Made by a program: the position numbers and the translations under genes. The notes under the pieces were generated by a model, which had not been told where the DNA came from, did not search any database, and saw nothing but the letters and a program-made list of their open reading frames with translations. Source: Isoetes taiwanensis (taxonomy: Eukaryota > Streptophyta > Lycopodiopsida > Isoetales > Isoetaceae). From it: a DNA stretch of 64,000 bases. This document shows, one piece after another, positions 20,531 to 47,099 of this stretch. The stretch covers positions 10,043,017-10,107,016 of the forward strand of contig JAJEKV010000025.1 of the NCBI GenBank assembly GCA_021234155.1. Reading direction: 5' to 3'. The stretch's first letter is position 1; every line of letters begins with the position of its first letter.

Positions 20531-21198
20531 CTTATCTGAACAAGTTAAATAATACTTTTGAATTGCAAACAAAGCCTTCCACCCATCAATACTTTCTCAA
20601 GTTCTTTTAATTTAATTTTCTAGATTCATTACATGCTTGTTGCCTCAAAGGATGATTGTGTGATTTACATACCGGTAAGCAATTCATCACCAGAACTTCC
20701 TAGTGAAGTGCATCGCCGCTTTTCAAAGCATTCTAAATGCTACAAGAAGGACATCTATAGAAATTTCAAATTCCTATTTGCTTGTGTAACAAAAAATTGC
20801 CTTGTATTGTTGTTGCCGATTTGAATGCAGGGTTGCCTCTAAAACTATTCCTCCAAATAACTATAGTCTAACTATTTTGTAACTAAAAATATGCATCGAT
20901 CCACACCGTAGATAGAGATTCTCGTGGAGGGCTATAATATATATTCAAATTTTCGTGTTTCTTCTCATTCGCATTTTTCTCGAAGCAAAGCTATCTTTCT
21001 TCCCCTCCCCATATATCATTTTGGGTTCCTATTCCCGATCTCTTCTTCTATAGGATCCTATCCAAGCTCGCTTTTCTTTTCTTGCTTTTAAATATGTTCT
21101 GTTTATCCTATCCAAGCCTTTTTCTCTTGGCGATAAATATGTTCGAGCCATTCCTCTACAACAATAAGTCATTCGGTTGATCTCTCACCATCTTCTTG
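20531..21198. other. Spacer before the TRIM insertion, no gene seen
   Basis: Shared with copy B 44,015-44,640. A short frame at 20,633-20,824 has no recognisable domain. Confidence 0.4.
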
Positions 21199-21203
21199 AT
21201 GTA

Positions 21204-21536
21204 TGATATGGTCTCAGGGGTATGGGATAAAGCCCGAAAGGTTGGGGCCCATTGATAACGAGAGTATTTCTTTGAAGGATTCCCTTTTGGTGTGTGTGTT
21301 ATCACTAGGGGTACTAGTGCGTAACATTTGGTATCATCGAGCCAAGGTTCAATTCCTCGTATAAACATTGGTGTGTTCCACATGCTTGAGGGCAAGCATC
21401 TCTACGAGGGGAGGAATTGATATGGTCCGGCGGGGGTATGGATAAAGCCCGAAAGGTTGGGGCCCATTGCATAACGATTTCTTTGAAGGATTCGCCTTTT
21501 AGTGTGTTGGTTATCATTAGGGGTGCTAGTGTAACA
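21204..21536 (+). mobile_element. Complete TRIM (terminal-repeat retrotransposon in miniature), copy A only
   Basis: A small non-coding LTR element of 333 bases. The 5' LTR is 21,204-21,326 and the 3' LTR 21,418-21,536. Both begin TGATATGGTC and end GTAACA. A primer-binding-like site, TGGTATCATCGAGCC, starts at 21,329, two bases after the 5' LTR, and resembles the initiator-Met tRNA site TGGTATCAGAGC. A purine-rich tract, GAGGGGAGGAAT, lies at 21,406-21,417 directly before the 3' LTR. The five-base target duplication ATGTA flanks it (21,199-21,203 and 21,537-21,541). Copy B has the empty site with one ATGTA (44,640-44,644). It is structurally whole; the LTRs differ by several substitutions and small indels. 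It codes for nothing and would depend on enzymes from other elements. Confidence 0.9.
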
Positions 21537-21541
21537 ATGTA

Positions 21542-22100
21542 ACTCCTCTCAATCGCTCTTTTGAAGGTGCATCTTTTGACTCATGCAAGGGATTCATCTC
21601 AAAAATCAAGATGCATTTCGACTATGGCAGGGCTCTTAGATACATCTTTCACTCTTGAGTGCATGTCTATGCATGATGTCTACGTATGCTTTGAAATGCT
21701 TGAATCTATTGAATGATGGTGGTGTGGATATATTAATTGAACAATGTGCAACATTTCTTATTCCAGATTCCAAAAGATCCATGTTTGCAATTGCTGATTG
21801 GGAAAAACAAGAAGTTGTCCTTGGAAATCGTACATGGGCTAACTTCCAAAGGAGGTTGAGATGTGATTCTCTTACCCCTAGCTGCAAGCAGAGCATTTCA
21901 GAATTTTGGAAATAGAATAGCAGTCTCTCTCCTTGCAAGAAGGATGTTGTGAACTTTGTTGTAGACTCTAGCTTTCCAAATTTCTTATCCCTTGCACCTT
22001 ATGGAGGTCACACATGTATAAATTTCCATGGAAACATTCCTTGTTATTCTTAAATATTCCTAACAACCAAACCACTTTTTAGCTGCAACCTTTTCAACAA
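21542..22100 (+). pseudogene. Unknown coding remnant shared by both copies
   Basis: The plus frame at 21,655-21,915 reads DILIEQCATFLIPDSKRSMFAI..., and the copy B version (44,700-45,030) has TMHDVYACFEMLES and LIEQCATFLIPDSKRSM. The LxxLCxxFL-like pattern weakly recalls the helix after a BTB domain, but I would not name it. Small indels separate the frames. Confidence 0.25.
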
Positions 22101-24440
22101 TACAAAATGGCATACCTTGGATACCCTATTTGTGTGAAGGCTTTTGAGAAGCTTAAGCTTTTTTATGTTAAAAAAGTAAAGGGAAATCTATGGAGTATGC
22201 CACTGCTCTTGACCATAAATTATTAAGATCTAGTTTGCAAAATCGGAAAAATGCAAAATTATCATATCCCTTGTGTTGTGAAGTAGAGAAGCATCCATAT
22301 TACAACTTCAAACCTCGGCAATGCCCACTCCACAAAAATCATAGTATCGGATATGTGAATTAGGTACTTGTTTGCGCTTTTACAACATGGTATGTATCGT
22401 GGAGCAGATTTTTGTGGTATGTTCTCCTCTCTTTTTTTTAATGCTAGCACGCCATTTATGTTCAATACCATCAACTTTTGAAGGTTTCCATTCCTCAACC
22501 TCTGCGCCCTTTGCCAAGATGTGTTGTACAATGTCGACACGCGTGTTGTTGCTTTGCTAGTTGGTGATGGCAAGCTAAAAGCCTTGCTAAGGTGTACTCT
22601 GATTAGGACCTTCCCCGCTTCTAAAAATTGGTGTAACTTGGCTATTAGCAATAGTTAGATTTTCTCTCAGAGTTCATACATCACAAATTTGCAATTGTTT
22701 TATGATGTGTGACTACTTGATTAAGCCCGATTAGCTTGGAAGGCCGGGAAGTTTCCTGATGTTAGAGCTTTGTATTTGCTATAGCGCTTTGTGTTTTGCC
22801 ATAACACGTTGGATCCAAATGCTTTGGGCGCTTAATTGTGCTCCTATATTCTTTGTATCCGAAAGACTATCTCTTTCCCTCGATCTTGTTCATCGGGCCA
22901 GATGATGATGTCAGAATACAAGTTGATCTCGTTTATCTACTAAAAATATTATTTCAAGGCCATATAAACATCTAAAAGTTAAGAATCGTATCATCTACCA
23001 CTTGGGTTGTGGCATGGTCTTCTTCCTCAAGTTCACCAAGTACAACCGAAAGTGGACCTTCTTTTTGGTGCAAATTTTGATCCAAGCCTAAGTTGAAATG
23101 AAAACTCTAAATATACTTTACAATGACATTGTGCATGAAAAGCGAGTTGAAATATATTCATCGCTTAAACAAAAATCTTTGCCTCTTGTTTTTGACAACG
23201 GTGCAATCAAAATTGGATTGTTTGAAATAGTTACGCAAAAAACACATTAGAATAATTTCCATTTGGAAATAAGATGTTTATGGGCACGCATTCATCAACC
23301 AATCATCCGACTTACCCTCACCGCTCTTCTTCTCTAATCTTCTTGGACCTTGACCTTATCACCCTAGAGATCCCCGACAACAACCTTTGGTAACCCCGCT
23401 TGACATCATCGATATCCTTGTTTGTTCCTCGTGATCAACCATGTTAGAGGATGCCTTTGTAGAGGTCGGCCAGAATTTAGAACCACAATGTAATTAGGAG
23501 CATCATCAACACTACTTGAATCTCCTGAGATTTTGCAGGGTTTGGTCCGGTCAGCAATCGCTAATTGTCGCTAATTGCCGGCATCTTATCCGCTGTCTAC
23601 AAGATCTTCCGTTATTACCAAGTCAAATTGAGATCTAGAAAGCAAGCATGTACCCTTTTTAGCGCTTCACAAGGGAGTTTAAGCCCTTGTAGACTTGTGT
23701 TTTGTTAAACCTAGGGTCCTTTTTACTTGTAGGTGTTTTAACATGCTTCCTTTTCCTAGTGCTTTATGGAGTTGTAGCTCCGCTTCATATCAGCATTAGT
23801 CTTTTCAACCTTAGATATGTGGGGAATGCTCTAGCATATAAGACTTCCCCGCTTTTACTTAACTTTTGCTTCCTCAATTCTTGCACAAACCTTGTGGAAA
23901 TGCACTCCCGCTAAAACAAGCCAACTCTCAAGGCAATGTATTTTTGCCATCTAGCAAACTTAGGCAGCTTACATATATATACATGTATCCATATTTCATC
24001 TTCAAAGCTATGGGTGTAATCATTCTCAGTGGTTGGATCACATGTATGTAGAGCAATTTGTTCATCTCCAATTGGCAATCCGAATGGCATAGAGGAAATC
24101 AACAACATTTCTGGTCATTTCCCTCAAGTGGGTGACATTCTATAAATAACGTTGGGCTTTTGCAAGGTGCACTTCATTGATGGCAACCTCAGCAGTTACA
24201 GTAGCCACCTGTTACACTATCCCTTCATCTATTGGCCCACCCCCCATTTCAAGGAGGATTTGGGCATGTACTCCGCCATATCTTTCTCCTTCCCTAAACT
24301 CAGTAGGTCAGCAGAGGCAACTGCATTAGGATCTATCAGGGCTTGAAAACATGAAATATTGTCTTTTATGGTCTGCAACTTCTGTTGTGAAGCCAAGAAG
24401 AAAATGCCCTTTGCTTGATTATACAACTAGCTCCTACTTG
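22100..24440. other. Copy A unique tail, no gene seen
   Basis: Homology to copy B ends at about 22,100 (B 45,212). Only short frames occur and no family is recognised. Confidence 0.5.
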
Positions 24441-25241: not shown

Positions 25242-25251
25242 NNNNNNNNNN
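25242..25251. other. Assembly gap of ten Ns
   Basis: Ten Ns. Copy B begins immediately after it, at the point matching about position 371 of copy A. Confidence 1.
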
Positions 25252-26660
25252 AGAAGAATGGCTGGGCTGAGCAGAGCGCTCGGTTGATGCACCATAATCC
25301 GGCAGCTGCCATGCTGATGATGTTTGACCTGCTCATATACCCAGAGGACATTACAACGCCGCCTGGATACTTTGGACGCTTTCTGCCGGTTGCTGACGTA
25401 GGGAGTTAACTTGGCCAAGACAAGGGAGTGCACTGGTCCCATCATCCGGCACCCACGCCTTCCCTCATTCACTTACCCACCAGGGGCAGGTAGTGGTGGC
25501 TTCAGTCTTATAGTATTTAGGCATTGGAAGGTTTCTACTACCACACGGGGATGCATCCATGTCAGTTGTGGTCCTTTGCAGTAGGAAGCCACGTATGCAA
25601 TGCAAAACAACGGTCTGGCGGTGTACATGGGGTCACCGGGCACACTTGTTGAGACGCCCAGGACGGAGCGGTCCTCCCTCTATGGGAAGGCGGAGATTGT
25701 GGGGCCGGTGGTATCCCTCACCACTTGGGAGCGATCTAGGCAGTGCAGAGGCCTTCTTGGCGGGGCCTTTGGGAGGTGGAAATCCCGCGATCCCCATATG
25801 CTCCGGATCTTGCTTGGGAGGCAGGGCTTCCTTCCATTCTGGAGAACATGGGCGTCACGGTATTTGCTTCCGGGAAGGTGGTGACTATGGATGGCTTAGG
25901 CGCTAACAGCGTGGCGATGGGCCATAGCGATATCAAAACACAGCGGAAGAAGACAAGCAAAAACCCGGTGGTTCGCTATGGAATGCGAGCACACCTGAAT
26001 GTGAACCGATTACCATACAGAAAAGGCTTGCCAGAAGCTGATACCAAGATACTTGCTTCATAGCCAAACTTTAAGGATCTGAGAGCCACATCACACATGT
26101 CCAGGTGGCAAATTGCTCATTGACGGGTTAATCCCATGCTCCGAGGGGCCATACCACTACCAGCACCCATCTACCATGAAAGCGGGGTGATTACTTCGAT
26201 ATGCCGGTGAACACCACCTCCGCGTGAACGGAGATGGATTGGGAGCAGCGTGAGGGCAGTCCCGTGATCTTTGTCCGTAGAGCCATTGAGGATAGAAGTC
26301 CCAGCCCTCCGGGCACGTGAGTGCGAGGCATGTCGGGGCTCGGTATGCTCGATTGGTTGTGCCCCATTGGGCCTTGCGGCAGGATGCTGAAACCTGCGGC
26401 CTACGTAGGCTGTTGGGATCGTGCCTGGGGAGGTAATGGTCTGTGGACTGGGTTATACCCCGGTCAGGCAGTAGCCACCGGTTGTACTTGTGATTATGTA
26501 TATAATTGTGCGGTGTAATATCCCTTATTGCTACTAGGTTTTCCCGAAAACCACCAGGCGAGAGGTTTTAATCCACAGGTAGTAATCGCTGCTCTCTCTT
26601 TGTACTTGGGTCCCTTAGGCGGGTTGGTCTCAGGTGGTTGATAAAATCATATTCTATTCT
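25252..26660 (+). mobile_element. LINE reverse-transcriptase remnant, copy B
   Basis: Duplicate of 371-1,690. The catalytic region is corrupted here (around 25,300-25,330). A KYLGIE-like region lies near 25,510. Frames 25,559-25,906 are fragments of its C-terminal part. Confidence 0.5.
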
Positions 26661-28028
26661 ATTCTTAATATGTGGATTTGGTATTATCATCATTTGAATT
26701 AGAAAATGGTTTTGTCTGCTCCATACAATAAAATGCATTGTGAACCAAGTTCATGTTCAGGAATACAACCCGGAGATATTGTTAGTGTCACGTGTTCCCA
26801 ACATACCGTCAGCAACTTGGTATGGCATACTCTATATAGATGTGATATAGGATAATCCAAAGTTGAATGGTCCCCACAATTAGTTAGGAAGTACTCTCTT
26901 CTATCTATTTACAAACTCTTGCAAGGTTATTGAAAAGAAAGATACAAAATATCTAATATAGATGATATGTTTAGAGCTCGACTTAAGACATGGAGTCCCA
27001 TATCATAATTAATAGCCAAACAAAAGATTCAAAATAACAATTAAGGCTACAATTATTGGAGTGCAATCTTCAATCTATCATCTGCAAGCACATAATAATA
27101 ATTGTCTTTCAATAGCCAGTTTTATCAGGTTTAAATATAGAATTACATTTGTTTTGCAAAATATGCATAGGGTAGCATTAGGAGCAAGCCTTGCTCAATT
27201 TATTACATTATCCTTCCGTTTTGGCTGACATCAACAACTGAGGGCTTGGGGTTGATATGCTCATTTGCATATTTGACAACCATAGCAGGGCCACTTGTTT
27301 TTGGATGTCCAATTCTTGGGCGGAATTGCTTTGAGAACTTGTTTGGGTAGAACTCTACAAACCAAATGATGTTCTATACCTCTACAAAATCTACAATGAA
27401 TTTGACATGGGAGCAGCATGCTCTGTCTACCGGTAATGCAGCTATTGAAATATGTCTATGGCGACATTAAATATATCTACATGCCACTTTCAACGATAGG
27501 TACCTAAACCTGTACCTCAAAATTATGACAAGCAATGTATTATTATTACATGCAACTTCCTAATAGAATCCTATTACTCAATGCGGATGGCGTTTCACGG
27601 TACCGAAGGGGTCGCCTGTGTGCCTGGCATGTGGTGGCGGCATTTGTGTATGCGTACTCTAAATATATGGACATCTCCGATTGAGAACTGAATTGACAGC
27701 TTCTTATAACTTTTACGTGGGGACTTGAGCAACAATGCTTCTTGCGGGCAATCTTTGCGGACCTATATCCCAAGCGTACAAGAACTTCTGAGGACAGTTT
27801 GTATTATTGCGTAGATACAATACATTTAAACGGAAATTAGAATTTATTCATGTAGACAAATTTATTTGAAACAAACTGGTTCATAGACACTATTTCCTCA
27901 TGTTACTGTCAAAAACATATAGAATGAATTAAAAAAATTGCCAATACAATCACATCATCACTAAAGCAATACACACGTGCGTGCTCATGCGCCCTAGCAT
28001 GGCATTTCTCATATGCTGTAAAATAAAC
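26660..28028. other. AT-rich spacer, copy B of 1,690-3,195
   Basis: No gene seen. It shows clear CAG-to-CGG type differences against copy A, for example at 27,745, 27,758 and 27,774. Confidence 0.6.
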
Positions 28029-28031
28029 CAT

Positions 28032-28660
28032 CTAACAAACCTTGTAAGCATTTAACTTGGTAAATGGCTCTATTCCACACATGGTTGCATTTGAACAACC
28101 ACCTTCTTGCAGACAATCTCCCAAAGAGATGAATGGTCTAAAAAAGCTAAACTTTAAACTTTGAGCACGGTCGATTGGTTGGAAATGAGTAGCAGCAAAA
28201 TAATTGGTCATTCCACTTTGCACAAGACTTGTGAATACGGACATGACATCATCGATTATGGGCATCAATCTTGCATTTGAACATGCACCTATAGTGGATA
28301 TACGCGCATATCACCAAACTATTTCCTCGTATTGCACGCAAAAATTTAAATATGTAACAAAAAATTGAAAGCATGCAACAGTGTGATAAAAGATACAAAT
28401 TGTAACCACCTTTAGATTTGGGCTTCCTTGCAGCTGTCTTAAACTCCTTCCAACCGTCGTCTTCTTACTAACGCTGCCTGGTGTCTTACACTTCCCTTGC
28501 AAGCTGTCATCTTCTTCTTGACCTTCCTGCAATTGTCTTCTTTTTCTAGCTACTACCTTCTTTTCACATCGTTTATAATCTCTTCTTTTCTCTCATTTTC
28601 TTCTTACTTGGAGCTGGAGGGGCTAATATCTGGGAATGCGTTTGGTGGCAGGAATTAAAG
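28032..28660 (-). pseudogene. Basic-repeat small gene, copy B
   Basis: Counterpart of 3,200-3,841. MPIIDDVMSVFTSLVQ and CGIEPFTKLNAYKVC remain. The KR-rich repeats are partly scrambled, and the start codon region is altered. Confidence 0.4.
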
Positions 28661-29159
28661 CTCAAAGTGCACCGGGTCGATTACTCGGGTTTGGAACGGG
28701 GAGACGAGGATTTTAAGGTTAAACCCAAGCCGATATACGGCGGTTCTATATAGAGGGCAGCGGAGCTACGACGCGGGTGAATATAGCTATGTAAATATGG
28801 CCCTCTCTTCTATTCTATTATGTACAAATGCGTTACACAAAAGCAATGCAATCCCTTTGTGCATAGAAGGATAAAGCGCCTAGGCCTGGTTGATGTCAGC
28901 GGTCTTCCCTCGAATGGTTTTGCTTTGGTAGGCGGCAATAATGCGGCTCCTCATCACTGACTTGCTCGCGGTTTCATGGCATGGAGATTACAATACGCCA
29001 TGAAGTTACTAGGTGGTTACCGTTCAGTGTATGGCTTTCCGGTTGGTAGAAACGGAGCGCGCCGGTGGTGATCATTGTCTTCCTTCGTCGGCGGTCGGTT
29101 CTGCGTTTTGGGATGACAGAGATTGCGGAAATGGCGGTGTAATGCGGCTGTGGGTTGGG

Positions 29160-29380
29160 CTGGTGCCTGCAGCTTCTCCAATATGCGGCTTGCGTGTACG
29201 AATGTCGCTGATGCTCTGCGGCGGAACGATAGGAGGAGCTATTGGATTCCATGCGATTCGGCTTCATCGGGTAGACATTCTTAATAAATGCGTGGACGTT
29301 AGGGGTATTCATTTGGGCCGCGTGGAACGTAATGTCAGTGGATATAATTACTTGGATTTACAAGCCTATGATTTCGTTGT
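29160..29380 (+). mobile_element. LINE RT fragment, copy B
   Basis: Degraded match to 4,395-4,618. Recognisable bits lie near 29,260-29,365 (FGFIG.., DLQAYDF). Confidence 0.35.
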
Positions 29381-29384
29381 TGGG

Positions 29385-30835
29385 TGTGGAAATGGGTTGT
29401 GAAGTTTGTTAGTCTGGACCAACATGCATAAGCCAAAAGAGAACTGCATTATGCTTCAACAAGTGAGCTTTGGAGGTCTCTTGTTTGTCAAAAGATGATA
29501 AGTGAAAGAATGGTATGCATAATTTGTCTTACTCTTTTAATGTGATAATGTGGACCCTAACAAAGCTACCAACATGTCAAAAGAACACTCTTCGATTCAT
29601 TTTAGATTTTGTGTTTTTTTTGCTTAGGTTTATAAGCTAGAAGAAATCGATAGCAAAGAGTTATTAAGGCGGATGGAAAAAAGCAGTCCACTAAACTAGT
29701 TAACAAGACTACAAAATTCTTTGAGATTTTTGAAGAATTCAAAACTATGAGGGTAGATGTCAAACCGGGGCAATTTTAAGAATGTTTGGAAACATTTCAA
29801 AAAGGAAGTTTGATTGATTGATTTTGCTGAAAATTACACACAAAGATTGACAAAATTCAAAGTGCGCATTGGAGAATGATCAATGCACAGTTTTAGTGCA
29901 TATATCATATGAACACGTACCAAATTTGATTGTTATTTCGTTGGATGAGGATAGGAAGAATCATCAAAGAAACTCACTTCTACATCTCGTTGATGAGGGA
30001 ACTTGACGCTGTTTTATGCAACATTGTTTTTAACAATCATGCAATATTCTTGTCCGATAAACAGCATAAATTACCACATACATGTTGTTGGGTGGGTGGA
30101 TGCTCCGGCCCGTGAAAAGGAAGTAGAACAACGGAAAGAAATTATCAAGAAATGGTAGCATCCCAATAATTTAGCATTGTTTGCTTCTTATCATGGAAAT
30201 ATAACTTTTCATTTTCATTTAATTGGTGTTTATGTTCATTTTCACTAAAACTGATGGAAGACATGTGAACATGATAGTCTTTGAGGAACAACTCATGAGA
30301 TGTTAAAAGCGAAATTCCGTTACCACTTAGAAATGCACATGATGTGGTAGTTTTGCATTAAACATTTCGGTGACAACACTACTACATTTGGAGGCAGAAA
30401 CGGTGCGGGTATGTGGCGAACTTATAGATTTCTGGAGACATTCTAATTCCTGGAGAGCTTGTTGTGCTTATGTTTGACCGGATATTTTTGGAAATTGGCA
30501 TAGGGATGTTGATGGGGTGAAAGATATGATTATGCAACTTTTATGCGGTTCCTGTAAGTTTTTCATTTCCGTCGGGCCTACTCAAAGGGTGACTGCTGCT
30601 CGGGTGTGGCATATGGACTCCACATGTTTGTCATCGGTGTTTTGGTTAGGAAGAGTTAATACAAAGTGTCCCAACAAGCCCGAGAATAGGCATCTGGTCA
30701 TACTGGAAATTAAAACGTGGGTCTGAATTTATGTTGAGGTTATTAGAGCCCTTTTTTTGAAGGAGACCGCAAAGTGAAAATCGAGATATCATTGCTCGCA
30801 AAGTTTCTTTCATCCAATGTTGGGCAAATCAAGGG
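29385..30835 (+). pseudogene. Transposase-like remnant (DFAENY type), copy B
   Basis: Counterpart of 4,622-6,098. DFAENYT near 29,820, ETHFYIS near 29,965 and a KTDG piece near 30,248 survive. Reading frames are shorter than in copy A. Confidence 0.4.
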
Positions 30836-30837
30836 TT

Positions 30838-32285
30838 TGTTATTATTTGGTAAGGCTACCTCTAAACCAAAAAATTCCAGGGTGGGCTTGAACCAAAGCT
30901 ACAAACCTTTGATATTTCCATAAAAAGAGGTTACACAGTGAAGAGTCCAGGTCTTTGTTACCTTACATTTTTCTTTGATCATGAGGATGTAGTAGAAGTT
31001 GTTGACTTTGTGGATGCAGCAAGCTTATTCTGACGGTAGAAAAGCGCAGAACCAAGCGAGGATTGTGCTACCTATAAAAATTTTTCTACAATTCAAAAGG
31101 AAATGCCCTCGGAAGGATTGACCCTCGAGCCAACAAGGAGGTTTAAAGAAAAAGTCTCAGACAATTCAAAATGATTAATGATGTTTTATGTAAGGTCAGC
31201 GAGGGATGGATTAATGCGGGTGTGTGTCAATGAAGAGGAATCTACTTTGATCATTAAATGCATCCAGGGTATGTGGAGCCCATTTTCTTTGGAGATACTC
31301 TGAAAGAAAATTCCGGGGCAGGGGTTATTGGCCTACAATATTTAAATTTGTTATCTTGCTATAAAAATCTTGCCACAAGTGCCAAATATTTAGTAAAGGA
31401 TCCCTTCTCAGTACGCACTAAGCCCCATCATTCGACAGGACCTTTCCAAATGTGGGGATTAGATTGTATTGGTCCCTATTGCTTATACAGGGACAACATC
31501 GGACTTATTATTGTTAGCCTTCTGATTATTTTACCAAATTGGAAGAGGCAATTCCTTTAAGACAAGCTAATGCCATCTGTGACAAAGCAGTTCTTGTAAA
31601 GGTATATTTGATAGTTTAGTATCCCCTCTAATTATTGATACGAGGGAGGTACTCCCTTTGTGAATGAAGTCATTTCTAATTTATGAAAGCCATTCTTAAA
31701 GTCAAGCATACCAGGTTCTCTTACTACCCCAAAGGCAATGGTCAGCTACTAATAGGGTTTTGAAAGCATTTTTCTTGACTTGATTGGATGATAATCAAAG
31801 GTGGCATGTCCAGGCTGGTGGATGCTCTGTAGACATAGAGTCACCATTAAAACAACAACCACCCATACACCTTTATTAATTTGTATGGCATTGTTGCTTC
31901 GGTGGGAACTTGTTGCCATCTGGGTTTTTACATAAGTTGTGTTTGCCTTTTTGGTATGCTTTAGGAAGATTGGATACATGCGTTTGAAGGAATTATGAGA
32001 ATGGAGGAATGCTAATTTGCTAAAAAGCCAAGGATTTGTTTGCTTTCCAAAGCACTCATAAATCTGGGACTTTCCAAGGGAGAGTTAGTCTAAAATGGAA
32101 TAAATCAAAAGGGAAGACTTGTTTAGTAAGTTTGAAAACCTTTAGGAGGGCCCCTATGAGGTGTTGGAAATTGCGGTGCAATTCCTATTAGTTAAAGGGA
32201 ACTAACGGGGATACCACTAAATCCCTATCAACACTATTCTTTTGAAAAAAAAGTCCCGGATCAACATATATGTTTGTCTCTTTTA
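30838..32285 (+). mobile_element. Ty3/Gypsy pol fossil, copy B
   Basis: Duplicate of the RNase H to integrase fossil of copy A, with the same order of parts and the same limits. It is broken in more places than copy A, as read. Confidence 0.75.
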
Positions 32286-32444
32286 TGTTCTAGAGAACTT
32301 AGACAAGTTAGAATTAAAGTTAAAAAGGCCAGAATAGGTTGGATTAGATTTCATTTTGTCTTAAATTTAGAACTAATGTTTTCATTGAGTTTATATTTTG
32401 CGAGAATTAGCCTTACAAACAAGGAAAAAATATACTTTATATTT

Positions 32445-32835
32445 AAAGAATGCACTAGAACAAAGAATGTTATAGAACAACATACAAAAGGGACAGGGGG
32501 CAAAGTTTAAGCGAGGAATGAAGTAGTTGTTCTTTGGAAAATGGCCTGAGATTAATTAATGGTAGCAACTTGTATGAATTGCTAAAAACATGAGCCAAAG
32601 TCTAAGGGTGGCCCATCTGACCATTTGGTTTTGGCTATTAATTTTTGATATGACCAGATTGAGAACAACCTATTTGACTCCCTAAAAGTGTGCAAAGATC
32701 ATATTATGAACAGCTTGCATCAAAGCACATCCATTTATGCTCGAGGAGCTTGAGGAGTTCTAAAGGAAATAAGCTGAAAGGAAGGAAGAAATAAAACAAA
32801 AGTAGCAAAAGGCAAATGTTGTACTTGATTCATGC
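32445..32835 (+). pseudogene. Unknown Lys-rich frame, copy B
   Basis: Counterpart of 7,741-8,116, with indels. The KECTRTKNVIEQ segment is open at 32,440-32,480. Confidence 0.25.
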
Positions 32836-33356
32836 TGTAAATATTATTGAATAGATGTTCATTTCATGTTTATAGTTGTGAATACATTTTCAATTCCACA
32901 TTGATTGATTCATATGTAACAATTCATACAATGATATGCTTGAAGGAAAGATTCATACAAAGATTGATTCATTTGTAAAGATTGTAAAGAGATTGTTTCA
33001 TATAATGTTTCATACATTGATTCCTATAATTATTGTAGTGGAAGGGAATTGATTATTTACAAATCATATTATTATGTTTAAACTCTTATTGAATTTAGAA
33101 ACATAGAAGTGAATACCCACAACAAAACAAAGGTAAACAAATTAAACAACAACAAACAAAAGGTAAAAAAGTCATTGATTGTATTGATTCAAAATTGTGA
33201 AAAACATGTCAACACCAGAACACAAAATAATGTTACATATACACTTTTGTACTTTATATTAAAAAAACAGAATGCGCTTCTTTAATAAAAGCTGGTTACA
33301 TTACGGATAAAAGGCTGAAAGAGTGCTTTCTTGAGTTCGAAAGGTCTGGCCTTGGC

Positions 33357-35280
33357 AAATGCAAGATAACCACACAGGTTGCTCCATAATCAAAACTATC
33401 CTGCTGGAACTTCATCAATTTGGCTGGTAGCAAATTTTTGTTCGACAAGCACCTCTTCAACATCCTTTTTTTTCTACTATTTCTCCGACGTTTTGGTTCT
33501 TACGTCAACCATCGATCTTACGTATGGTGATGGGGCTCCTCCTTCTTTGCATCTTCTATTGATGCTTTTGCGGCAATCTTTGCCTCATTTCTTACAGCGC
33601 ATTAAATATTATGAACAAGAATTCAGCATTAACTACAAACATGTTTGAACATTGGCTAATCTCCAAGCACCGGGACTTACCGGTTTCTTGCGTTGCTCAG
33701 TGCGTTTCTTCGGCCGTCCGTCTTGCCGATCACAAAAATAGAATAATTGAAAGTTATTGAATCCTTGAAGAAAAGTTATAATACTAAATCAACTATAAAA
33801 AATTTTGTGAGATATATGAGCAAATTTAACGAGAATCCTTAACTTTCAATATCTATAAGCGTTGTAAAGAGAATTGAAGTTACCACCAAACAAAAATAGT
33901 GAAACATTAGAAGATATAATGAACAATAATACTTACTTGATAACACCTATCTTGTCCTTCTTGTGCTGGCCCTTTGTCTTCCTTTTCTTGGTACCACGGG
34001 TCCTTTCAAATTTTGAAATCACTTTGGGGCTTATTGTACAAAGTTGATGTCTGGCTATCAACTTCATCCTTCGCAACTTAACTTTCTATCTTTAGCACTA
34101 TCATTACTTCAGTTTCTTCTTCATCTTCATGGTTAGAGTCTTCTTTCAGGTTAACACTACGTGATCTATTGAATCCGGGCCTCGCAAAAATACGCTTTGG
34201 AACTTCCTCTCCACAATAGCTAACCACACAATGCATAGGTTTCAGCACATTAGAGAAGCAAAAACATGGTATTTATGTCCACATTTGTTTATTTTAACAA
34301 AACGGGTCATAATCTTCGGAAAACAAAGGCCACATGCCGACATACATTACTAGTTAGCAAAGGCAAAGTATAAATACCCTTACCCAACTCCATCCAAGAT
34401 TTGGTATTTCACTATCTTGTTGCATATTGAAACATACTTACTTAACCTTGCATGCCTTCATCATTTGTTGTTTCAAAGGATGCTATTTCATCCCATCAGA
34501 CTGAAATTTGTGCACGAATGTCTTTCCCCTTTTAGAATTTTATTTGCATAACCGACGCTTCCAAGCAGTTCTCGTGATAACTTCTTCATCGTTTTTAGTT
34601 TTGCAATAGCAAACCACCTCTAGAAAAATCACGTTCAAAGGTTTTCCGCCTTTTTTGAACGATAGCCTTTTGCATATAGTTTTGGCAGTTCTTTCGCTCT
34701 TTCACCTTTTTCAATAAAGATTCTTGTTTTGATAATAGCAACTCCTCCGTCTTCATTTCAGCAAGCTTACTCAAGGATCCAAAATAGCATTGTTATTCAG
34801 TAGTCTTTGCACTTCCCTTAGATATCTGACGCTCAAATGTCTGAAACTTCTTTAAAAGAAACTAGCCTAATTGACTGAGAACGCCAGGATTTGCCAAAGC
34901 TCATTGTGTATTACCCAAGCAAAGGCTCGAAAGCAAATGTGACCCTAACCTCGATGTTGGTAGACTTAGTTTTTTTTGATAAATTCTTCGAAGCAGGATA
35001 TGCAAACAGAGTGGCGAATCGGGCCAAATAAATTTCATGTTTATCTTTCCTTTTTCAAGAGGGCACGCCAGACATCAAAAATTTCTATCGAGCTTATCCT
35101 CTTGAATTCCTTCAATTCGGGTTTCTCCTCATTACACAAACCTCGCTTGTGTGAAATTCAATCAGGTTCTTGAAAAAACAGTTCTGTAAACATAAACTGA
35201 TTTTTTTTAGTTGAATTTGAGTAGATAGAACGAAAAGCATGACTTGAAGGAAACTTACCTCGGTTTGAGTTGATCGCCAT
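33357..35280 (-). pseudogene. Coiled-coil/RING-like gene, copy B
   Basis: Counterpart of 8,651-10,620. The MAINS start (35,280-35,278) and the donor pattern of exon 1 are preserved. Downstream exons carry many small indels. As most differences lie in the CAG/CTG-miscalled zone, calling it dead would be premature. Confidence 0.45.
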
Positions 35281-35529
35281 AGCTAGTTGTTGGAGTTCGG
35301 TGGAGTGTTGCAGAATAAGATCACATTCAAAATCGAAATTATTTCAACATCAATTATGCCCCGAACAACTTCGCTACAGAGGGCCTGCGGACCCGCAGAA
35401 AACATCGAAGGGCCCTTAAAATGATGAAGGCGCCCTTCACGCCACGCAGAAAGTGCTGAAAAAAGGTGTTGAGCCGATGTCAAGTGCCGGAAATTGAGTA
35501 GGTCAAAAAAAAAAAAAAGCCTACCAAAG

Positions 35530-37440
35530 AACATGGAAGTTCTCTCGCCAATGAGCCATTATAATAGAAAACAAATTGTGATGCAGGCCAAGGAGGATGG
35601 ACAAATGGAGATCGCTTTGGTGTCTTTTCATCTGATAGTGGTTTGGTACAAATCTTCCAACATGCAATAGTTATGTGAGCAAGGCAATAGCTTGAAACTT
35701 CGCTGTGAAGACGTTAGTTTCATCGCAATAATGGCAACAAGCAAAATGATCTTGCAAAAGCATCTAACCTTTGTTTGGTTTCATTTCCAGGAAGACCTTG
35801 CCCAACCACCACTAATTTGAGCAAAGAACATTTTTGAAATGGGGGTTGTGATGCCAAAGCGTTCTATGATGCATGCAATGTTGCGGCGATGCTAGACATT
35901 AAGGCATAGCAGATCTGGCCGGGCTATAGTGGAAAGCAATGACGTTGGTATGTTGGACATGGCAGCCATATTATCTTTGAATAATGGGTTTCTATGTTCT
36001 TGGCATCCATTCCCTAATTGCCTCTCAATCATTGTTGACTACGCTACAATTTGCATTCTTTTAGAATAACCACGCATAACAGCTAGTTGTGAATGCAAGT
36101 CTATTGAGTTCACATGGCCACAAACATCTAGTGGGCATGCTTCAAGGCCTCATTCTGGCTCTAGCACCAGAAATATAGAAGGTTGTCGAGAAGCCATAAC
36201 GTAAGAACCACAAATGCGTTATCAGGGATATGGAGTGGATGGACAAAATGGAGATCGTTTGGTATCTTTCCATCGTTTTGGTATCTTTCGAACGGCCCGA
36301 CAAAGAAACGCAGAGCACTCTATGGGCCTAGAATGGTATTTGTGAAGTTGGTATCTATGAAGTTGCATCTTTGTTAATTTGTATGTGGTCTGAAGAAATA
36401 TGCTTACCAAGGTATTAGTGATAGCGCTATGCATCTGGCCGGCTTCATCATGTTTGCCATTGGTTTATGTCGTCAAGCTTTTGCATATGGTCGTAGGTGT
36501 TCAACATGATGGATGTCTAATCGCATAGTTGCAAAGACGGGGATGAAAGCATGAGACTATAGACATCATTGCTAACATGCGGCCATCCAACGGACACAAT
36601 CCTGGTGTCCATGCTTTCACGCATGCCAAGTGCATGATGATTTTGATGCGGGGATAGCGAGCTGCATTTACAATAACCGACAACTATTAACTTATATTGA
36701 TTTTTCTCCTATGGTCACATAATTAACTAATAAAAGGTATAGCATTTGGTATCATGCCATTCATTAGCATTCTATGTACCAGTTACGTGGATTTTTACGC
36801 CTTCAACTAAGATTGCCGCTTGCACTTAAAGGACGTGGCCAATCCGTTAGATCAAAATCGGTCATCAATTGCTTGTGGCTTGAAAGCTTGGGTAACTTTT
36901 ACAAAATATAAACATGCACAAAAAGTACATGCGAAATTACGCATTAGCATTAGAATACTTTGGACAAATGCAAGTAAAGGGATACGCACAAGGGAAGTAA
37001 CTAAACTAATCAATTTCATATTCGTTATTAGTGTATAAGCAATAGGCAAGGCATTCCAAAATAGAATATTGTGCTTTTCTCGATTTAAATCTTGCATGCA
37101 TGCATGTATAGAGCTTAAAAGCAAGGGTTTTCTTTGTGTTTTTGAGAAGGAGCCTTGCAAAGCTTTTGTAGAAGGCCGAGAGGCGACTTTGAGAGCATAG
37201 AAGGATTCTGTTGGAGACACCAAAGAGGCAAGAGCTTGGAGATCACATCAAGAATGGCATCAAACATCTTCTTACAGGGGGGGGTTTGTTGAGTTAATTT
37301 GAGGTACATGGGTTGATATCATTGATTTTATGCATGAATTGATAAGAAGGTTTGGCTATGTATGTTCGAGAAAGTATGCCATGCGAGAAACATCAGGAGG
37401 AATGAAAGATGGAATAGAAGCTAATCTAGATGCATGGTAA
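35530..37440 (+). pseudogene. PPR-like debris, copy B
   Basis: Counterpart of 10,900-12,800, including the internal direct repeat (35,555 and 36,195). It has no continuous frame. Confidence 0.3.
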
Positions 37441-40240
37441 TTCCTAAAAGAGCACAGAGTAGGTCGAAATGCGAGGAGGAATCTAGTTGAGAAGTTATGG
37501 GCTGCAACAAGCGGTTTCATGCAACGAGGCGGAATCGCACCCGGTAAAACCGAAGATGCAGGAAACATCCGGATATGACATGGAACAGGGCCGATTTGGG
37601 CATTAGAATCCGATGCATTGTGGGCAGCTCGAAAAGTTGCAATCGATTACGTAACCCGATCGTTTTGTTGGTTGTTTCGTTGTTTTATTTGTCCTTTTCC
37701 TTGATGTCTTGTTAATAAATGTCATGTACACCTTAAATAAAGTTATAAAATTGGATAAATAAATGTACAAGGAGTATAGAAACTATGGAAGTACAACGGC
37801 GGGGATCTAGCTGAGACTATCCACCATAGTAAGTTCAAGATGAATCTGGGAGATAGGTCGATTTGATTATTGGTTATTTAAGTATGCTTTGTTGAATTAA
37901 ACAAGATAAGGTCCTAAAGTAACATGAGGCATTGAAGCAGTGGTTCACGGAGATGGGGCCCTGGTTTTATGGTAAGTTGGCGAGGCTATATCGATTCTTG
38001 GTCATGAGGTCTGGCCTGTGGATTTTAAGCCAAGTGCAAGATTTGGAGTTTCCACATTAGGCGCATTAATAAATCTTAAGCTATGGAAAGTGGGTTTTAA
38101 TTAGAATATTCAAAACCTTAGCTAACAATGGTTCAAAAAGAAATAGATGTTGGAACTTTGGAGATCCGGAGAAGTTGGGTAGGAGAGCAATATGAGGTAT
38201 ATGGGTGTCAGGATGAGGCTATGGCGTGGACCTTTGTTAGTCTAAGTGTATATACATGTAAGTTTCTAAGTTGTTGCATTGTATTTTATCAAAGGCATCA
38301 TAGCTAATGGATTATCCCCATGGGAGAATGGTTATGAGGCAAATATTGCATGAATGGATTGGTAGTATCTTTCCTTGTTCACCAAAGTGCACGTAGGCGT
38401 GAGAGCTACATCAATGATAGCCATGCTGCGACTTCATCGGCGTGATTAGATTGTGATCATCACGGGTGTCGAAAAACATGGTATTGGATGAATTATATGC
38501 TTAATGGTAAAGTTACTATGACCAGCTGGTTTATCGAAGCTAATGTGGAGTTGCATTTCTCATAATGGGGGAATCGCCTTTAGCGTGGTCGTAAGTATTG
38601 TGAAAATGCTAAGTATGAGATATACTTCTATGTCATTGTAGGGTTCATTGGGAAAGCTACGCCGACAAGTATGGGCAACCTACGACAACGGTATGATCTA
38701 GGCACATGTATAGGGAATATTCTAATGAACTTCACATGTCTTGGTCTTTGCATTGTTCCTTTCGTTGTCTTGGTATTTGATCATGTCTATTGGAACCTCA
38801 GAATTCCGGACTTCTAGGTTCGGTGGCTAAGTTGCTCGGCATGAATCATGTTCTATGTTCTTTGTATTCTTGTGCTCACGTGACACAGGCGTAGTTCTCC
38901 TGGCTTGGATTGCTACGTCCGGTCAACTCTTGTGAACTCCCATAGTAAGAGGTCCTCCAAAGTGCGGGGCGGTGGGAGAGGGTATCGATATCACGACCAC
39001 CCTTCTGAGGGCTTGGAATGTAAAGCTGCCACGGGCAACATGTCTAGCGGGGCCTGTATATAGGCTGGCTGAGTTTCCCATTGTCCCAGAGCTATATTTA
39101 TGATGATTTGGTATTTTGGCAATACCAATGCTATAACCTGGTCTTCATTGGCAAAGAGACTTCTAGCTCATATTAAACTAAAATTAGATTTGCAATGGCA
39201 GAAGCATTAGAGTACGGGTTTGGGGCGATTTGGCTTTGAAAGACCACAATCATTAGCCGAGATTGACACTAACATCAGTTAAGGTGATTGATTTCTTAGG
39301 TGCCGCAGGAACTTCTTACATAAAACTTATGAAAACTAAAAAATTTCTCACAACCAATATATATTTGGATCCCACTCTTGGGATGCACGAGGCGCTGGCT
39401 CCACCACGCTAAATTCATTCTTGTTGTAGAATATGAAATAATTAGATGGGAAGAGATATACTGTGAAAGTCTTTTTTCTGACTTGGTAGTGGACCACTGT
39501 TTTAAGTGTAACGACAAAGAATTGCAATTCATGATGATTGAATACATGCGTCTTAAATATGCCAGTGGAATCAGATAATTCTTAATATAGCAGCATCATA
39601 TATTATGCTGTTCTTCGTCTTGCTTTTAACTTACTTTTGGCTTGTTCACTGTAGGGCAGGATTACAATGCCGACTGCAGGCCACCAAGAGCATATAACTA
39701 GAGACGACACAACATACGTACAGAACATGGTTAGGTACCCCAAAGATATTACCTTTGATAGTCGCGTTGGTTGATGATGTTTCAGCTTGAATGGTGTCTG
39801 GGTCCAAGTTCTCAAGGATAACAACCCGAAATAGAGCTTGTACACAGTTCATCCTGCTCACTCTCGTGAAATGTTTTGGTCTCTTCGAATTGACCTGGGG
39901 TCAAAAGCAACATCCATACATGTTGTCTACTGACCATTTTAGCTCTAGTCCACAATAGACAGCGCATTATATGATATGACTCTCTTTCAGATCCTTCACA
40001 GTCTTCGTAATCATACTGCTTACTTTACATCTTGAAAGATCTGTCATAAACTCCTTGTCCTGTTATTGATCTTACACCACATCATCTTCAGCAGAGAAGG
40101 ATTCTTTGGCAATAAAAGTTCCGCATGTATGCCTCCACTATCAAAGTAGTCTTGCAATAAAATCTATGTCATAGAAGCACTAGGTATCAGCTTGGTCTTA
40201 AACTCTAAAATGTATGCTTCAGCATTTGTAACTTGAAAGT
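37440..40240. other. Spacer, copy B of 12,800-15,770
   Basis: Strongly different from copy A up to about 39,150, then almost identical. No gene recognised. Confidence 0.5.
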
Positions 40241-40247
40241 ACGTTAC

Positions 40248-41648
40248 CACTGCAGCATATGCATCAACATTTGCTCTTCGAACGTTGGTTGCTCCCCTCT
40301 GCAAGCTGAAAATGGTGAATAACTTGGATGCATTTCCAATAAATTAATCTGGACACCCTCACCTGTAAATCATAAGATCAAGCGCATCATCGGAGGTACC
40401 ATATTCATCTTGAAAATAAACCGCCATCCTCTGCAGGGACTAATAATTAAAACACACAATTTCAAATAAAAGGGACTATTAAATCACCGTTCAGCAGCAC
40501 ACTGAGCAAGTCGCCCCGCAAAGCAGCGCGTTTTGATAGACTGAAGTGTTTCTTCTCCATCAGAAGATCGTGGCAACCCAACAATAAACTCATCGGCTTT
40601 CTGCATAATTGTTTTATTTAAGTGAATCACATAGACAGATGACATGGGATGACAGAATTATAGGAAGGCATATAGATCTGCTAATTCATGTTCGAATGTC
40701 GTAAGGATGAGAATAATCATATCTAGGTTATATTGCAAGCTACATGCTGGTTGAATTGGAGACGGAAAACATGTAATCAGCATAGGCGATGCAATGCTTA
40801 AGGACCGTATTCTCTAAAGCACCATACTCAAAGGGAATTAGAAAAGTGGTCAAAAGTTTTAACACCTCTGCAGGCTTCCCATATGAAAATTAGTAGCCTT
40901 GAGAATAGCCTATCCTCCAAATAAAGAGAGTATAACACAGATTAGATAACTCATAGAAGATCTATCTATGCTCATCAATTTCAACGCCACACATTTATGA
41001 AAAGTCCACCCCTTGCTCCTGCTTGGTTTGGCAGATTATATAGTGTTGTCGCTATATTGCAAATCCACATTTTTTAAGCATGCAAATAGCATTCAAATAA
41101 AAGAGTTAGCTTGTTTCCTGACCTCTACAGTAGCTAATTTCACAAGGTGCGACAATAACCTTTGCCCTTGCAATTTTACCACCTGACTACCATAAAATTC
41201 CGATTAGTTTAAGCAAAGAAAACGTAATAAAACCATTCAGAGCTTACCGCAATGGGACGGGGAGCAAAACCGCATAAACTAGAGGCAACACCAGTTCTGG
41301 CATCTCCAAAATCAATTCCTAAACTATGGCGCAACTTATGAGCTCTTTCCCCAGCCTGTTTTCTGCGTGCATTTGACATGACACAACGCAATCTGGTCTT
41401 CAAATCATCTTTACTTAATTCGTTTTCTGTGTTCTCATTTGGCTCGGTCACATCAATCCCGGAGCCATATTCATCATCTGACTCTTCCTCTTCTTGGCGT
41501 TTTAAAATATGGTGCAGAAGCTCTCCGGTACCTTTCGGGGAAGCCAAGCTCGATTTTCGAAGCTTAAGTGGGTGCATTTCGGAGCCGAGAAGCTGATTTG
41601 GGCATGTGTTGCAAAGAATGATGGAAGGCGAATTGACGATGCCGCCAT
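40248..41648 (-). CDS. RuvX/YqgF-type nuclease, copy B
   Basis: Same gene as 15,781-17,185. Exon 1 is 41648-41248, ending at a GTAAGC donor. Exon 3 (about 40,595-40,485) reads in frame here as KADEFIVGLPRSSDGEET, then QSIKTRCFAGRLAQCAAER, an exact fit to the family pattern. Exon 4 (GWR..DEYGTSDDALDLMI) and exon 5 (RRANVDAYAAV, ending 40,248) each have a small deletion relative to copy A. Exon 1 also has small indels that shift the transit-peptide frame. The set of catalytic residues (Asp in GIDFG, Glu in DEYGTS, Asp in DAYAAV) is encoded. Neither copy is clean throughout. Confidence 0.85.
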
Positions 41649-41775
41649 AGCCAGGCTCTTCCTTCGTCGTAAATTTATCCCGTGTATAAGCCAGGTAAAA
41701 TTTGATTATTAGGGCTGAGCTGGCGTTCTGAACTGTGATATGTAGAACTCGTTTATTTGGGCACTGGAGCTTGAT
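41649..41775. promoter_or_regulatory. Bidirectional promoter region RuvX/COQ4, copy B
   Basis: 127 bases between the divergent start codons. It is nearly identical to 17,186-17,308. Confidence 0.5.
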
Positions 41776-43601
41776 ATGGTGAAACGCCTTGCATATCGTC
41801 CATGGAGGCTGCAGATCCGTGGCCACGAGAATTGGGCATCTGTAAATAATGGATCTGCAGAGCCCAATTCGCAGTGTCGTCGCGTACCTTTGTCCCCTTG
41901 GCAAAAAGCAGCGGTGGCAATTGGTTCTCTAATTGGAGCAGCTAATAATCCTGCTAGAGCCGATTTGGTTGCTGCTGCTGGAGAAACTACTGGAGGTTTA
42001 GCATTCCAGCGTATGCTGCAAAGAATGAAGAATGATGAAGAAGGCCGGGTATGTCTCCTCTTATTCCACACAGTGAATCATACAAGTTGAAATTTGGTAC
42101 CCTGAAAATTCTGGTGTCGTTTTGTGTTAGAAAGATGTCCCTTTAAAAAGCACATGTTATTCCTCCTCCTGATCCGCTGAGATGATCTTTGCTCTCAGAC
42201 TCTCTTTTTCTCGTTTGTCAAGAATCTGGTTTCTAAATCCAACGTCCCATGGCTTCATAAGATGCGACATGCTAAGGATATATCGGTTAATACGATTGTC
42301 TTTGTGCTCTTGATATACTATTTCTATTTACACAATCTCTCTTGTGCTCGAATGAGACAGTAATATGTAGGCTGCAAATTCTATGATTTAATACCAGGAT
42401 GTTTTCAAACCAAGTAGACTTAGTGAAGAAGCATAAACTGCAATGCTAGTAATCGTGCTCATCTCATCTGACTGTAGTGAATGCCACTCTTGTCACACAT
42501 GTTTGTTAACCTGCAGGATTAAGTTTAAGACTGCAGGATTGAAGTCTAAGAGTGCAGCATCAGTTGAAAATCTGATGCTGTGCTCTTGCAGCTTTTACGC
42601 ATTTCCAAGATATGCATAGTGTTTATTGATCCTATATTGCATATGGGTTGTTTGTCTACTGAAATGTTATTATTTTACCTTTGTGATACTTGAAACAAAT
42701 AATCTAACCTTCATGTTTGTCCATATGCATAATAGCTGACCTCATAGCTTGCATCAAGCATACAGTAGTTTGACATGCATACAAATGTCACCCTGTCTTG
42801 ATTCTCGGCACATTCACATCTCCTTTATCAAAACATCTAGAGCTGCTGCATTGTGTCTGCAATCACCTTTTGCACTCTGTCGGGTGATCCATCTTGCATG
42901 AACAAAATTGGATCATATCTACTTCCAGGAATAGTGCTCTGATTGTTTTGGAAGTGTTCTTCTCAAATTTGCACTTAAGTTCTGGATGAAATGTGCATTT
43001 ACTGTTTTCTTATTTTTTTGACTTGCAGGACTGCCATACATGAATACTTTTTGTCTCTTTTATTGTGTTTTGTCTGCTGAACATGCAGCTGATTTACAAC
43101 AGGAAATCCTTTTGCACCGGCCCAGAGTTGTCTCAGCTGCAGTTGAACATGCTTGGGATATGAAAGACAACACCTTTGGTGCTGCTTATGCAAAGTTTAT
43201 GGGTTCCAGGAATTTCAATCCGGATGATCGTCCCCCAGTTCGCTTTGTTGAGTCTGATGAGTTGGCTTATGTGGCAACTTCGTTATCGAAGTCCATGATT
43301 TTGGCACGTTCTGTTTGACCTTCCTACAAATCTCTTAGGTGAAGCAGCTTTGAAAATGCTTGAATTTCAGGTGACATTGATGCCAATGTGTTTTATGGCA
43401 GTCTTGGCTGGAACTGCCAGGCTCAAATCACAACAACAGTTGATGTTGTATAAGCATTATCTTCCATGGGCACTTTCAGCTGGAAGATCTTGCTCTGATT
43501 TAATGTGCATATACTATGAAAGGCATTTGGAACATGATTTGGAAGAAGTCCGGCATAAATGGGGCATAATCACTGCCCCACCACTTAGACAGAAGACATA
43601 G
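41776..43601 (+). CDS. COQ4: COQ4, coenzyme Q biosynthesis protein, copy B
   Basis: The better of the two COQ4 copies. Exon 1 (41,776-42,048) gives 91 codons in one frame, starting [16 protein letters not shown] (basic, free of acidic residues, like a mitochondrial presequence) and continuing [29 protein letters not shown] and [12 protein letters not shown]. The intron is GTATGT...CAACAG. Exon 2 (43,103-43,601) encodes [57 protein letters not shown], then, after small indels at 43,275-43,305, [51 protein letters not shown] and [10 protein letters not shown]-stop. The zinc-site motif HDxxHx11E is interrupted by the loss of one T (GATTTTGGCAC), as in copy A. Confidence 0.9.
42049..43102 (+). 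other. COQ4 intron 1, copy B
   Basis: About 1.05 kb and a close match to 17,584-18,664. It lacks a short piece near 42,349 that copy A has (17,884-17,918). Confidence 0.6.
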
Positions 43602-44700
43602 TGACAACCAAAGCGTAATGATTCAAAGAAGAAACAGGGACTCGTTACTTAACGCATTGCCAACTCAAGAATTATGAAAATGGTAACCATAGTAATGACC
43701 TCCTTACGTGGAAACTTTGAAGTTTAATTTATTAGCTTGCAGCCTTTCCCACTTCTTTGTGCAAGGTTTTTTGCTGAATTCTGAAGATGTATTTGATGGC
43801 CATAGGGCTGATGAACCGTCCAAACCCATATCTATTATTGTATGGTGAAGCGGCTGATAGTGCAGCAGGAGTGCATTTTCTGGTGTTTACTGCACAAGAA
43901 ACCAGGTCACATAGTTGACATGTGCTATCATATATAGAATGACTTGCTTGGATAAAGGATTCCAAATGTTGATATCGTCTATATCGGAACAAGTTATTTT
44001 AAGTCATTATCAAACAATACTTTTGAATTGCAAACAAAGCCTTCCACCCACCAATACTTTCTCAAGCTCTTTAATTTAATTTTCTCTAGATTCATTACAT
44101 GCTTGTTGCCTCAAGGGATGATTGTGTGATTTACATTACTGGTAAGCAATTCATCACTGTAACTTCCTAGTGAAGTGCATCGCTGCCTTTTCAAAGCATT
44201 CTAAATGCTACAAGAAGGGACATCTATAGAAATTTCAAATTCCTATTTGCTTGTGTAACAAAAATTGCCTTGCATTCTTAAATAAGTTGCTGACGCAACA
44301 GAGGGTTGCCCTCTAAACTATTCTCCTGTCTAACTATTTTATAACTAAAAATATGTAGATCGATCCACACCGGAGGATAGAGATTCTCGTGAGAGGGTGA
44401 GCAATATATATTAGGACTTTTCGTGTTTCTTCTCATTCGGCATTCTTCTTACAACAGTATAGTAGCATTGAGCAAAGCTATCTTCTTCCCTCCCCATGTA
44501 TCATTTTGGGTTCCTATTCCTGATCTCTGCTCTTCTATCGGATCCTATCCAAGCTCGTTACCTTCTTGCGATAGATATGTTCGAGCCATTCCTCTACAAC
44601 AATTAGTCATTCGGTTGGATCTTCTCAGCCATCTTCTTGATGTAACTCCTCTCAATCGTTCCTTTGGAAGGTGCATCTTTTTGACTCATGCAGTGGATTC
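43602..44700. other. COQ4 downstream flank, copy B
   Basis: No gene. It contains the junction of the 1 kb absence (about 43,983) and the empty TRIM target ATGTA (44,640-44,644). Confidence 0.5.
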
Positions 44701-45212
44701 ATCTGCAAAATCGAGATGCATTTTGACTATGGCAGGGCTCTTAGATACATCTTTCACTCTTGAGTGCATGACTATGCATGATGTCTATGCATGCTTTGAA
44801 ATGCTTGAATCTATTGAATGATGGTGGTTTGGATAGATTAATTGAACAATGTGCAACATTTCTTATTCCAGATTCCAAAAGATCCATGTTTGCAATTGCT
44901 GCATTGGGAAAATAAGAAGTTATCCTTGGAAATCGTACATGGGCTAACTTCCAAAGGAGGCTAAAATGTGATTCTCTTACCCCTAGCTGCAAGCAGAGCA
45001 TTTCAGAATTTTGGAAACAGAATAGCTGTCTCTCTCCTTGCAAGAAGGATGTTGTGAACTTTGTTGGAGACTCTAGCTTCCAAATTTCTTATTCCTTGCA
45101 CCTTATGGAGGTCACACACTACAGGTATAAATTTCCATAGAAACATTCCTTGTTATTCTTAAGTATTCCTAACAACCAAACCACTTTTTAGCTGCAACCT
45201 TTTCAACAATAT
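44700..45212 (+). pseudogene. Unknown coding remnant, copy B
   Basis: Counterpart of 21,542-22,100: TMHDVYACFEMLES and IEQCATFLIPDSKRSM are visible. The family is not recognised. Confidence 0.25.
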
Positions 45213-47084: not shown

Positions 47085-47099
47085 ATATCTTTGGGTGTG

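Follow-up and report, generated by a model that had tools for sequence, protein, structure and literature searches.

A segment that occurs twice in 64,000 nucleotides of Isoetes taiwanensis DNA (assembly GCA_021234155.1, contig JAJEKV010000025.1) raised the question of why the differences between its two copies, A and B, fall so often on the words CAG and CTG. This whole stretch, hereafter the window, is C1029:10,043,017-10,107,016 in a genome of 1.66 Gb in 1,110 contigs. A reading of the sequence alone (the sequence-only reading) had taken the pattern as a possible imprint of CHG methylation in the base calls. The imprint was found to be real, strong and technical in origin, and methylation is its most likely cause. 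The errors centre on C_G (C and G flanking one base) and on CG, recur on other scaffolds and spare a gene stretch. H, D and W are used in their IUPAC meanings. The two copies, the gap between them and the noisy part of B were placed as follows.

373-22102, + strand: copy A, matching C1068 in aligned blocks of 1.8-13.4 kb
25242-25251, no strand: scaffold gap, 10 N joining two contigs
25252-45211, + strand: copy B, opening on the first base past the 10-N gap
25252-39150, + strand: noisy stretch of copy B, CHG/CG-centred miscalls on a background error of 8% (polarised from B 26,646 to roughly 38,000)

The first base of B directly follows the 10 N, so copy B is a contig start. A and B were 82% identical in their first 14 kb and 95% identical in the 5.5 kb that follow. 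A third, colinear copy was found at C1068:2,214,326-2,237,014; it carries insertions and deletions of its own, and the comparison was therefore limited to aligned blocks. The repeat part is marked by a reverse-transcriptase stretch at window 4269-4778 (PF00078), the sole above-cut-off result among 12 open stretches tried from 0.6-13.5 kb.

The erroneous copy

In the A bins of 1.5-13.0 kb, B had 535 odd-one-out substitutions (the other two copies equal), C1068 had 88 and A had 8. C1068 agrees with A, the changes therefore belong to B, and B is the erroneous copy. The unpolarised alignment of A to B contained 954 substitutions, 1,023 deleted bases and 404 insertion events over 14,313 A bases. 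Within A 1803-13,500, A and C1068 had the same base at 9,469 sites, of which 1,032 were substituted or deleted in B. When other repeat copies were used as outgroup at the CHG substitutions of B, 6 were A-like, 1 B-like and 2 neither, which is too few; of five loci, L006 alone aligned. The differences are not a contrast of two equal copies, because B is a noisy contig start after a scaffold gap.

Sequence context of the errors

At the 9,469 polarised sites, counted by middle base, B was found to be wrong at 51/110 CAG and 63/129 CTG, compared with 5-12% in the controls (CAH 61/647, CTH 41/452, DAG 57/468, DTG 31/610), and Fisher tests of C_G against C_H gave p = 1e-18 for middle A and p = 1e-21 for middle T. 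The errors were thus found to centre on the methylation motif and not on neighbours of like composition. The concentration at CAG/CTG claimed by the sequence-only reading was borne out and proved wider than it had noted; its five quoted examples were all present in the sequence as stated, and the A-B alignment by trinucleotide context that it had proposed gave unpolarised middle-base substitution rates of 0.369 for 160 CAG and 0.286 for 175 CTG, against 0.067 for all trinucleotides. A second aligner, also unpolarised, gave CAG 91/159, CTG 88/163, CAH/CTH 184/1532 and DAG/DTG 223/1561.

When spaced base pairs were scanned blindly, 'C at -1, G at +1' came out on top (z 17.9, 44% of 272 sites), and circular shifting of the error track gave a mean of 26.0 and a maximum of 41 in 2,000 shifts, against the observed 114/239. 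Among the 64 trinucleotides ranked by error, CTG was first and CAG second, followed by TCG, CGG and CGC. The error of the cytosine itself was 30/129 in CG, 79/261 in CHG and 127/1369 in CHH context, the last being near the overall rate. C_G was the standout context whether the middle base was A or T, and CG was second.

The changed text was found to contain CG at 29/86 changed CAG and 41/98 changed CTG, and in the control words at CAA 5/70, CAT 8/49, CTT 0/60, GAC 0/25, GTC 0/28, AAG 0/56 and TTG 0/53. The sequence-only statement that the new text usually contains CG was therefore too strong (70/184 changed sites, against 0 to 8 in each control word), although the count skipped inserted letters and may be low. 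Misreading of CHG as CG does occur, as had been suggested, but as one outcome among several.

Outside the CHG and CG windows, 593 errors were found on 7,577 sites (7.8%), which contradicts the earlier statement that neighbouring non-CHG text is unchanged. This substitution and deletion baseline is what the usual nanopore noise of contig ends, of no special context and illustrated by selected examples, would leave. Such noise as the whole explanation is scarcely credible: it is contradicted by the context counts, by the shift control and by the recurrence described below, and the excess at CAG/CTG over other contexts, which it excludes, was found. The other errors had no clear link with CHG/CG density (Spearman 0.22, p = 0.06; -0.15, p = 0.30).

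The CAG/CGG and CTG/CCG differences also match the deamination of CGG and CCG, and C/T changes are more frequent at CG in natural divergence. B might accordingly be a real, older tandem copy with ancestral CGG/CCG, A and C1068 sharing CA/TG words derived by CG deamination. This is very improbable. Deamination should hit the other TG/CA words equally, but the middle-base error was 4% in TTG and ATG, 9% in GTG, 8% in CAA and CAT and 17% in CAC, against 46-49% in CAG and CTG; deletions, insertions and transversions were common at CHG; open frames of at least 110 amino acids (aa) dropped from 18 in A 373-13,500 to 6 in B 25,252-38,500; and near-perfect identity with A follows directly after the noise. 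Deamination as the source of the B differences was rejected on the spared TG/CA words and on the indels and transversions at CHG.

Composition alone (CAG+CTG against GAC+GTC) was tried as a detector and was rejected, the ratio being sequence-dependent (0.39 to 2.02 across loci); it was used solely for picking C523 and C690 for searches.

Position along copy B

The CAG/CTG error was 0.31-0.72 in the A bins of 1.8-9.8 kb (a site-less bin excluded) and 0.24-0.57 in the bins of 10.8-12.8 kb, while the rest error rate dropped from 0.06-0.18 to 0.014-0.042. This persistence would be the behaviour of a systematic error under growing depth.

The sequence-only reading had placed the end of the noise at 39,150 and taken it for a gene/transposon methylation boundary. 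The dense noise does end there: no B-private substitution or deletion was found beyond B 39,045 within A 14,000-15,200, and the indel differences between A and B reach about 39,150, followed by near-perfect identity. The rest rate dropped from 0.070 (bin starting at A 13.8 kb) to 0.003. Both CHG and non-CHG errors drop to near zero, so the edge is a consensus-quality edge; as a pure methylation edge it was rejected, the non-CHG error falling to 0.3% at the same place. The alignment contains islands of perfect identity ahead of the edge, which look like partial correction. Past the noise the copies were almost identical for 2 kb, with 1 substitution at A 15,000-17,000 and 18 A/B indel events at A 14,790-17,100.

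39160-41460, + strand: clean stretch of copy B, CAG/CTG errors 0/62 at A 15-17 kb

Recurrence at other places

The imprint was found at independent places, and it persists as random error falls, as a systematic error does. Two of these places are in contig A.

13546-14790, + strand: imprint and indel patch in copy A, to the left of the gene stretch (13- and 14-kb bins: CAG/CTG 12/32; controls 11/137 and 7/173)
19500-24000, + strand: tail of contig A with the imprint, mainly CTG to CCG

In the contig A tail at 20.0-25.2 kb, CAG/CTG error was 58/144 and control error 36/1198; at 22-24 kb the counts were 33/53 for CAG/CTG and 6/248 and 5/229 for the controls. To the left of the window, C1029 at 10,036-10,038 kb contained CAG/CTG errors at 23/57 (controls 3/208, 5/246), and the bins at 10,034-10,035.5 and 10,038-10,039 kb at 0/68. 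The imprint was also found at the start of C523: C523:1-4985 against C332 gave CAG 16/25, CTG 18/36, CAH 35/307 and CTH 53/286 (34/61 vs 88/593).

Near 1.21-1.22 Mb, C1068 compared with C1029 gave CAG/CTG 39/295, CAH/CTH 13/1351 and DAG/DTG 15/1256; the reverse reading, C1029 against C1068, gave 10/243 and 30/1367. The part of C1068 at 1,216.4-1,219.6 kb was polarised by two copies, including window 45.2-48.4 kb. In this part 46/60 private substitutions adjoined a CG or CHG cytosine (534 of 3,024 sites), and A>G was found at 14/35 in A before CG and 0/111 in A before CHH. As a negative control, the 138 substitutions and 49 deleted bases private to the window at 45.2-48.4 kb, which are ordinary divergence, gave CAG/CTG 2/38, and the C1029-private changes in the copies aligned there gave 0/37.

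The gene stretch

The imprint was found to be missing from the gene stretch of contig A.

15000-18999, + strand: gene stretch of contig A without CHG imprint, CAG/CTG 1/144
18655-19102, + strand: COQ4 exons, copy A (Pfam PF05019, 1.1e-24, 1.3e-5 and 0.0036, the last below cut-off)
43022-43598, + strand: COQ4 exons, copy B (Pfam PF05019, 8.6e-31 and 3.4e-17)
16742-17425, - strand: open frame of copy A, putatively RuvX/YqgF-like, named from a motif

The CAG/CTG error was 1/144 in the gene stretch against 58/144 to its right (20.0-25.2 kb; p = 2e-19). Stretch 14.9-17.9 kb was low-copy (at least 23 matches), and the tail of contig A at 22.1-25.2 kb is a dispersed repeat (at least 57 matches).

The residual A/B indels at A 14,790-17,100 were CG-adjacent at 8/18 (11.7% expected, p = 5e-4) and CHG-adjacent at 1/18 (13.7% expected), a small count made after the indels were seen, in which 10/18 also touch a run of at least 3 equal bases. 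CG-adjacent indels are what gene-body CG methylation would give. It is conceivable, though we consider it doubtful, that the FASTA of an incompletely polished plant assembly is a readable methylome, with repeats carrying CG and CHG errors and gene bodies CG errors only. If true, haplotype pairs in archived assemblies could be mined for methylation without reads.

Opposite A 17,000-19,500, B contained about 2% private substitutions with no CHG excess (CAG/CTG 1/95); they are perhaps true haplotype or paralogue differences. The COQ4 open frames were of 80, 75 and 64 aa in copy A and of 100 and 98 aa in copy B, and indels in A may break the COQ4 gene model of A. The RuvX-like frame of copy A had no Pfam or NCBIfam match.

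Methylation as the proposed cause

The best explanation, which we hold with high confidence, is that nanopore calling misread methylated CHG, and CG to a lesser degree, and that the miscalls were left where polishing failed. The affected sites share CHG and CG, and methylation is therefore read as the cause; we infer this cause together with the platform, the gap in the caller's training and the way the sequence was polished. The nanopore platform is suggested by the deletions, the small indels and the context-bound substitutions. The core idea of the sequence-only reading, an imprint of CHG methylation, thus stands as the best explanation tested, but CG sites are hit too and the tail of A is itself imprinted.

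Copy B would start a new contig after the scaffold gap with a first 14 kb of barely corrected nanopore consensus. Native plant DNA would bear 5-methylcytosine (5mC) at CG and CHG in repeats, and a caller trained without methylated CHG would misplace the signal of 5mC-A-G and 5mC-T-G. The resulting call would have a false middle base, a missing base or an alteration close by, with CGG, CCG or CG as frequent outcomes. Rising depth would outvote random errors, and systematic ones would persist until accurate reads fix them. Correction would have failed patchwise; in the gene stretch it would have succeeded or never have been needed at CHG.

The C/T divergence between A and C1068 was 17/537 in CG, 15/1055 in CHG and 29/5500 in CHH, and this excess at CG and CHG may be an independent hint of methylation over evolutionary time. 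Between C1029 and C1068 near 1.2 Mb it was 32/1073, 24/1216 and 41/7010 in the same order, a less clean count because the imprint itself contributes.

CAG and CTG might instead be hard k-mers for the caller irrespective of methylation, with short-read polishing clearing unique gene DNA and not repeats. The errors are indeed located where correction seems incomplete, the control error is lower in the genes, and there are clean stretches elsewhere, as at A 7.7-11.6 kb (4/115). We consider this unlikely, as the effect requires C and G jointly, holds for two families of k-mers and extends to CG, the same rule that methylation follows. Moreover, 18 A/B indel events are left in the gene stretch, which is therefore not fully corrected, and yet the B CAG/CTG errors there were 0/62. 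In the bacterial cases described in PMC6591954 and PMC10687267, the Dcm CCAGG/CCTGG errors were nearly gone after training on Dcm-methylated DNA, and a Listeria GCTGG strain went from 5,670 mismatches to 16 upon amplification.

Several observations weigh against methylation as the cause. The majority of the B errors, 593/1,032, were outside the CHG and CG windows. The last 1.2 kb of contig A before the gap (24.0-25.2 kb) were low in CAG/CTG error (2/42), the C1029 bin at 10,035.5 kb had CAG/CTG 1/7 though the controls were 8/51 and 12/62, and clean stretches were found at A 7.7-11.6 kb and at C1068 1,221-1,226 kb (1/120). The comparison of contig starts covered C523 only, among six starts considered; C523 had been selected for low CAG+CTG, which favours its result, and C332 may be noisy itself (reverse reading CAG 11/23, CTG 8/32). 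Transversions between A and C1068 were also raised at CHG (13/1055 vs 30/5500 at CHH), and the C/T count may therefore contain residual error beside deamination. In the gene stretch the control error was lower too (10/848 vs 36/1198, p = 0.006), so that the contrast of genes and flank is confounded with read mappability and polishing, and of the right flank 22.1-25.2 kb alone was checked as repeat.

Known systems and significance

This kind of artefact is already known from Dcm CCWGG, and the CHG form in a plant assembly is a variant of it. In Klebsiella, the default-model Oxford Nanopore Technologies callers of the time put about 70% of consensus errors at Dcm CCWGG, and a model trained on Dcm DNA left almost no consensus errors at CCWGG, according to the account in PMC6591954. 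The Dcm 5mC is located in CCWGG, a CWG context (PMC6591954). The likeness is that 5mC followed by W and G was misread by default models and persisted in the consensus; the difference is that the Klebsiella case is bacterial with a single fixed motif, whereas general CHG and CG are affected here, in patches of a large eukaryotic assembly.

In Listeria, modification-mediated errors are described at GCWGC and GCTGG, with GCAGC or GCTGG as their centre (PMC10687267). The consensus mismatches are likewise at motifs containing CAG/CTG, but the modification is bacterial and its type is not settled by the PMC10687267 text, whereas plant CHG methylation is proposed here. Lower nanopore accuracy is reported for native plant DNA (PMC9749173, PMC7501810), and those reports, as far as their relevant passages go, describe no imprint in an assembly; the main text of PMC9749173 contained 0 occurrences of CHG, CAG and k-mer. 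Among the matches listed for open-licence PMC papers (a scope that leaves subscription papers and vendor notes outside), no account of a plant assembly with a base-call imprint centred on CHG was found.

Such differences can be mistaken for duplicates that evolve fast, for newly gained CpG sites, for genes with broken frames or for variation between haplotypes. Uncorrected plant nanopore sequence can be recognised cheaply by a middle-base error that is raised in C_G but normal in C_H and D_G. If the imprint tracks methylation, archived assemblies preserve CHG and CG methylation in coarse form; the imprint serves as a warning and may also be a source of data.

Other features of the window

The Rfam scan (gathering thresholds) and the tRNA scan of the window gave 0 matches. 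The tail segment 22,201-24,953 was found to have an additional copy at C1029:10,121-10,127 kb with 82-84% identity. At the right flank of B (45,213-48,447) the homology with A ends, and this flank matches C1029:8,936,689 (93%) and C1068:1,216,421 (89%). These matches lie about 1.1 Mb (C1029) and about 1.0 Mb (C1068) away from where each scaffold resembles A; the flank is either a segmental duplication or a misjoin. The stretch 58,734-60,208 contained a satellite-like array with a unit of 16-17 bases (GGTTAATGTGGCCATAG); its longer periods are 217 and 385 bases, and sequence related to this array runs on beyond the end of the window.

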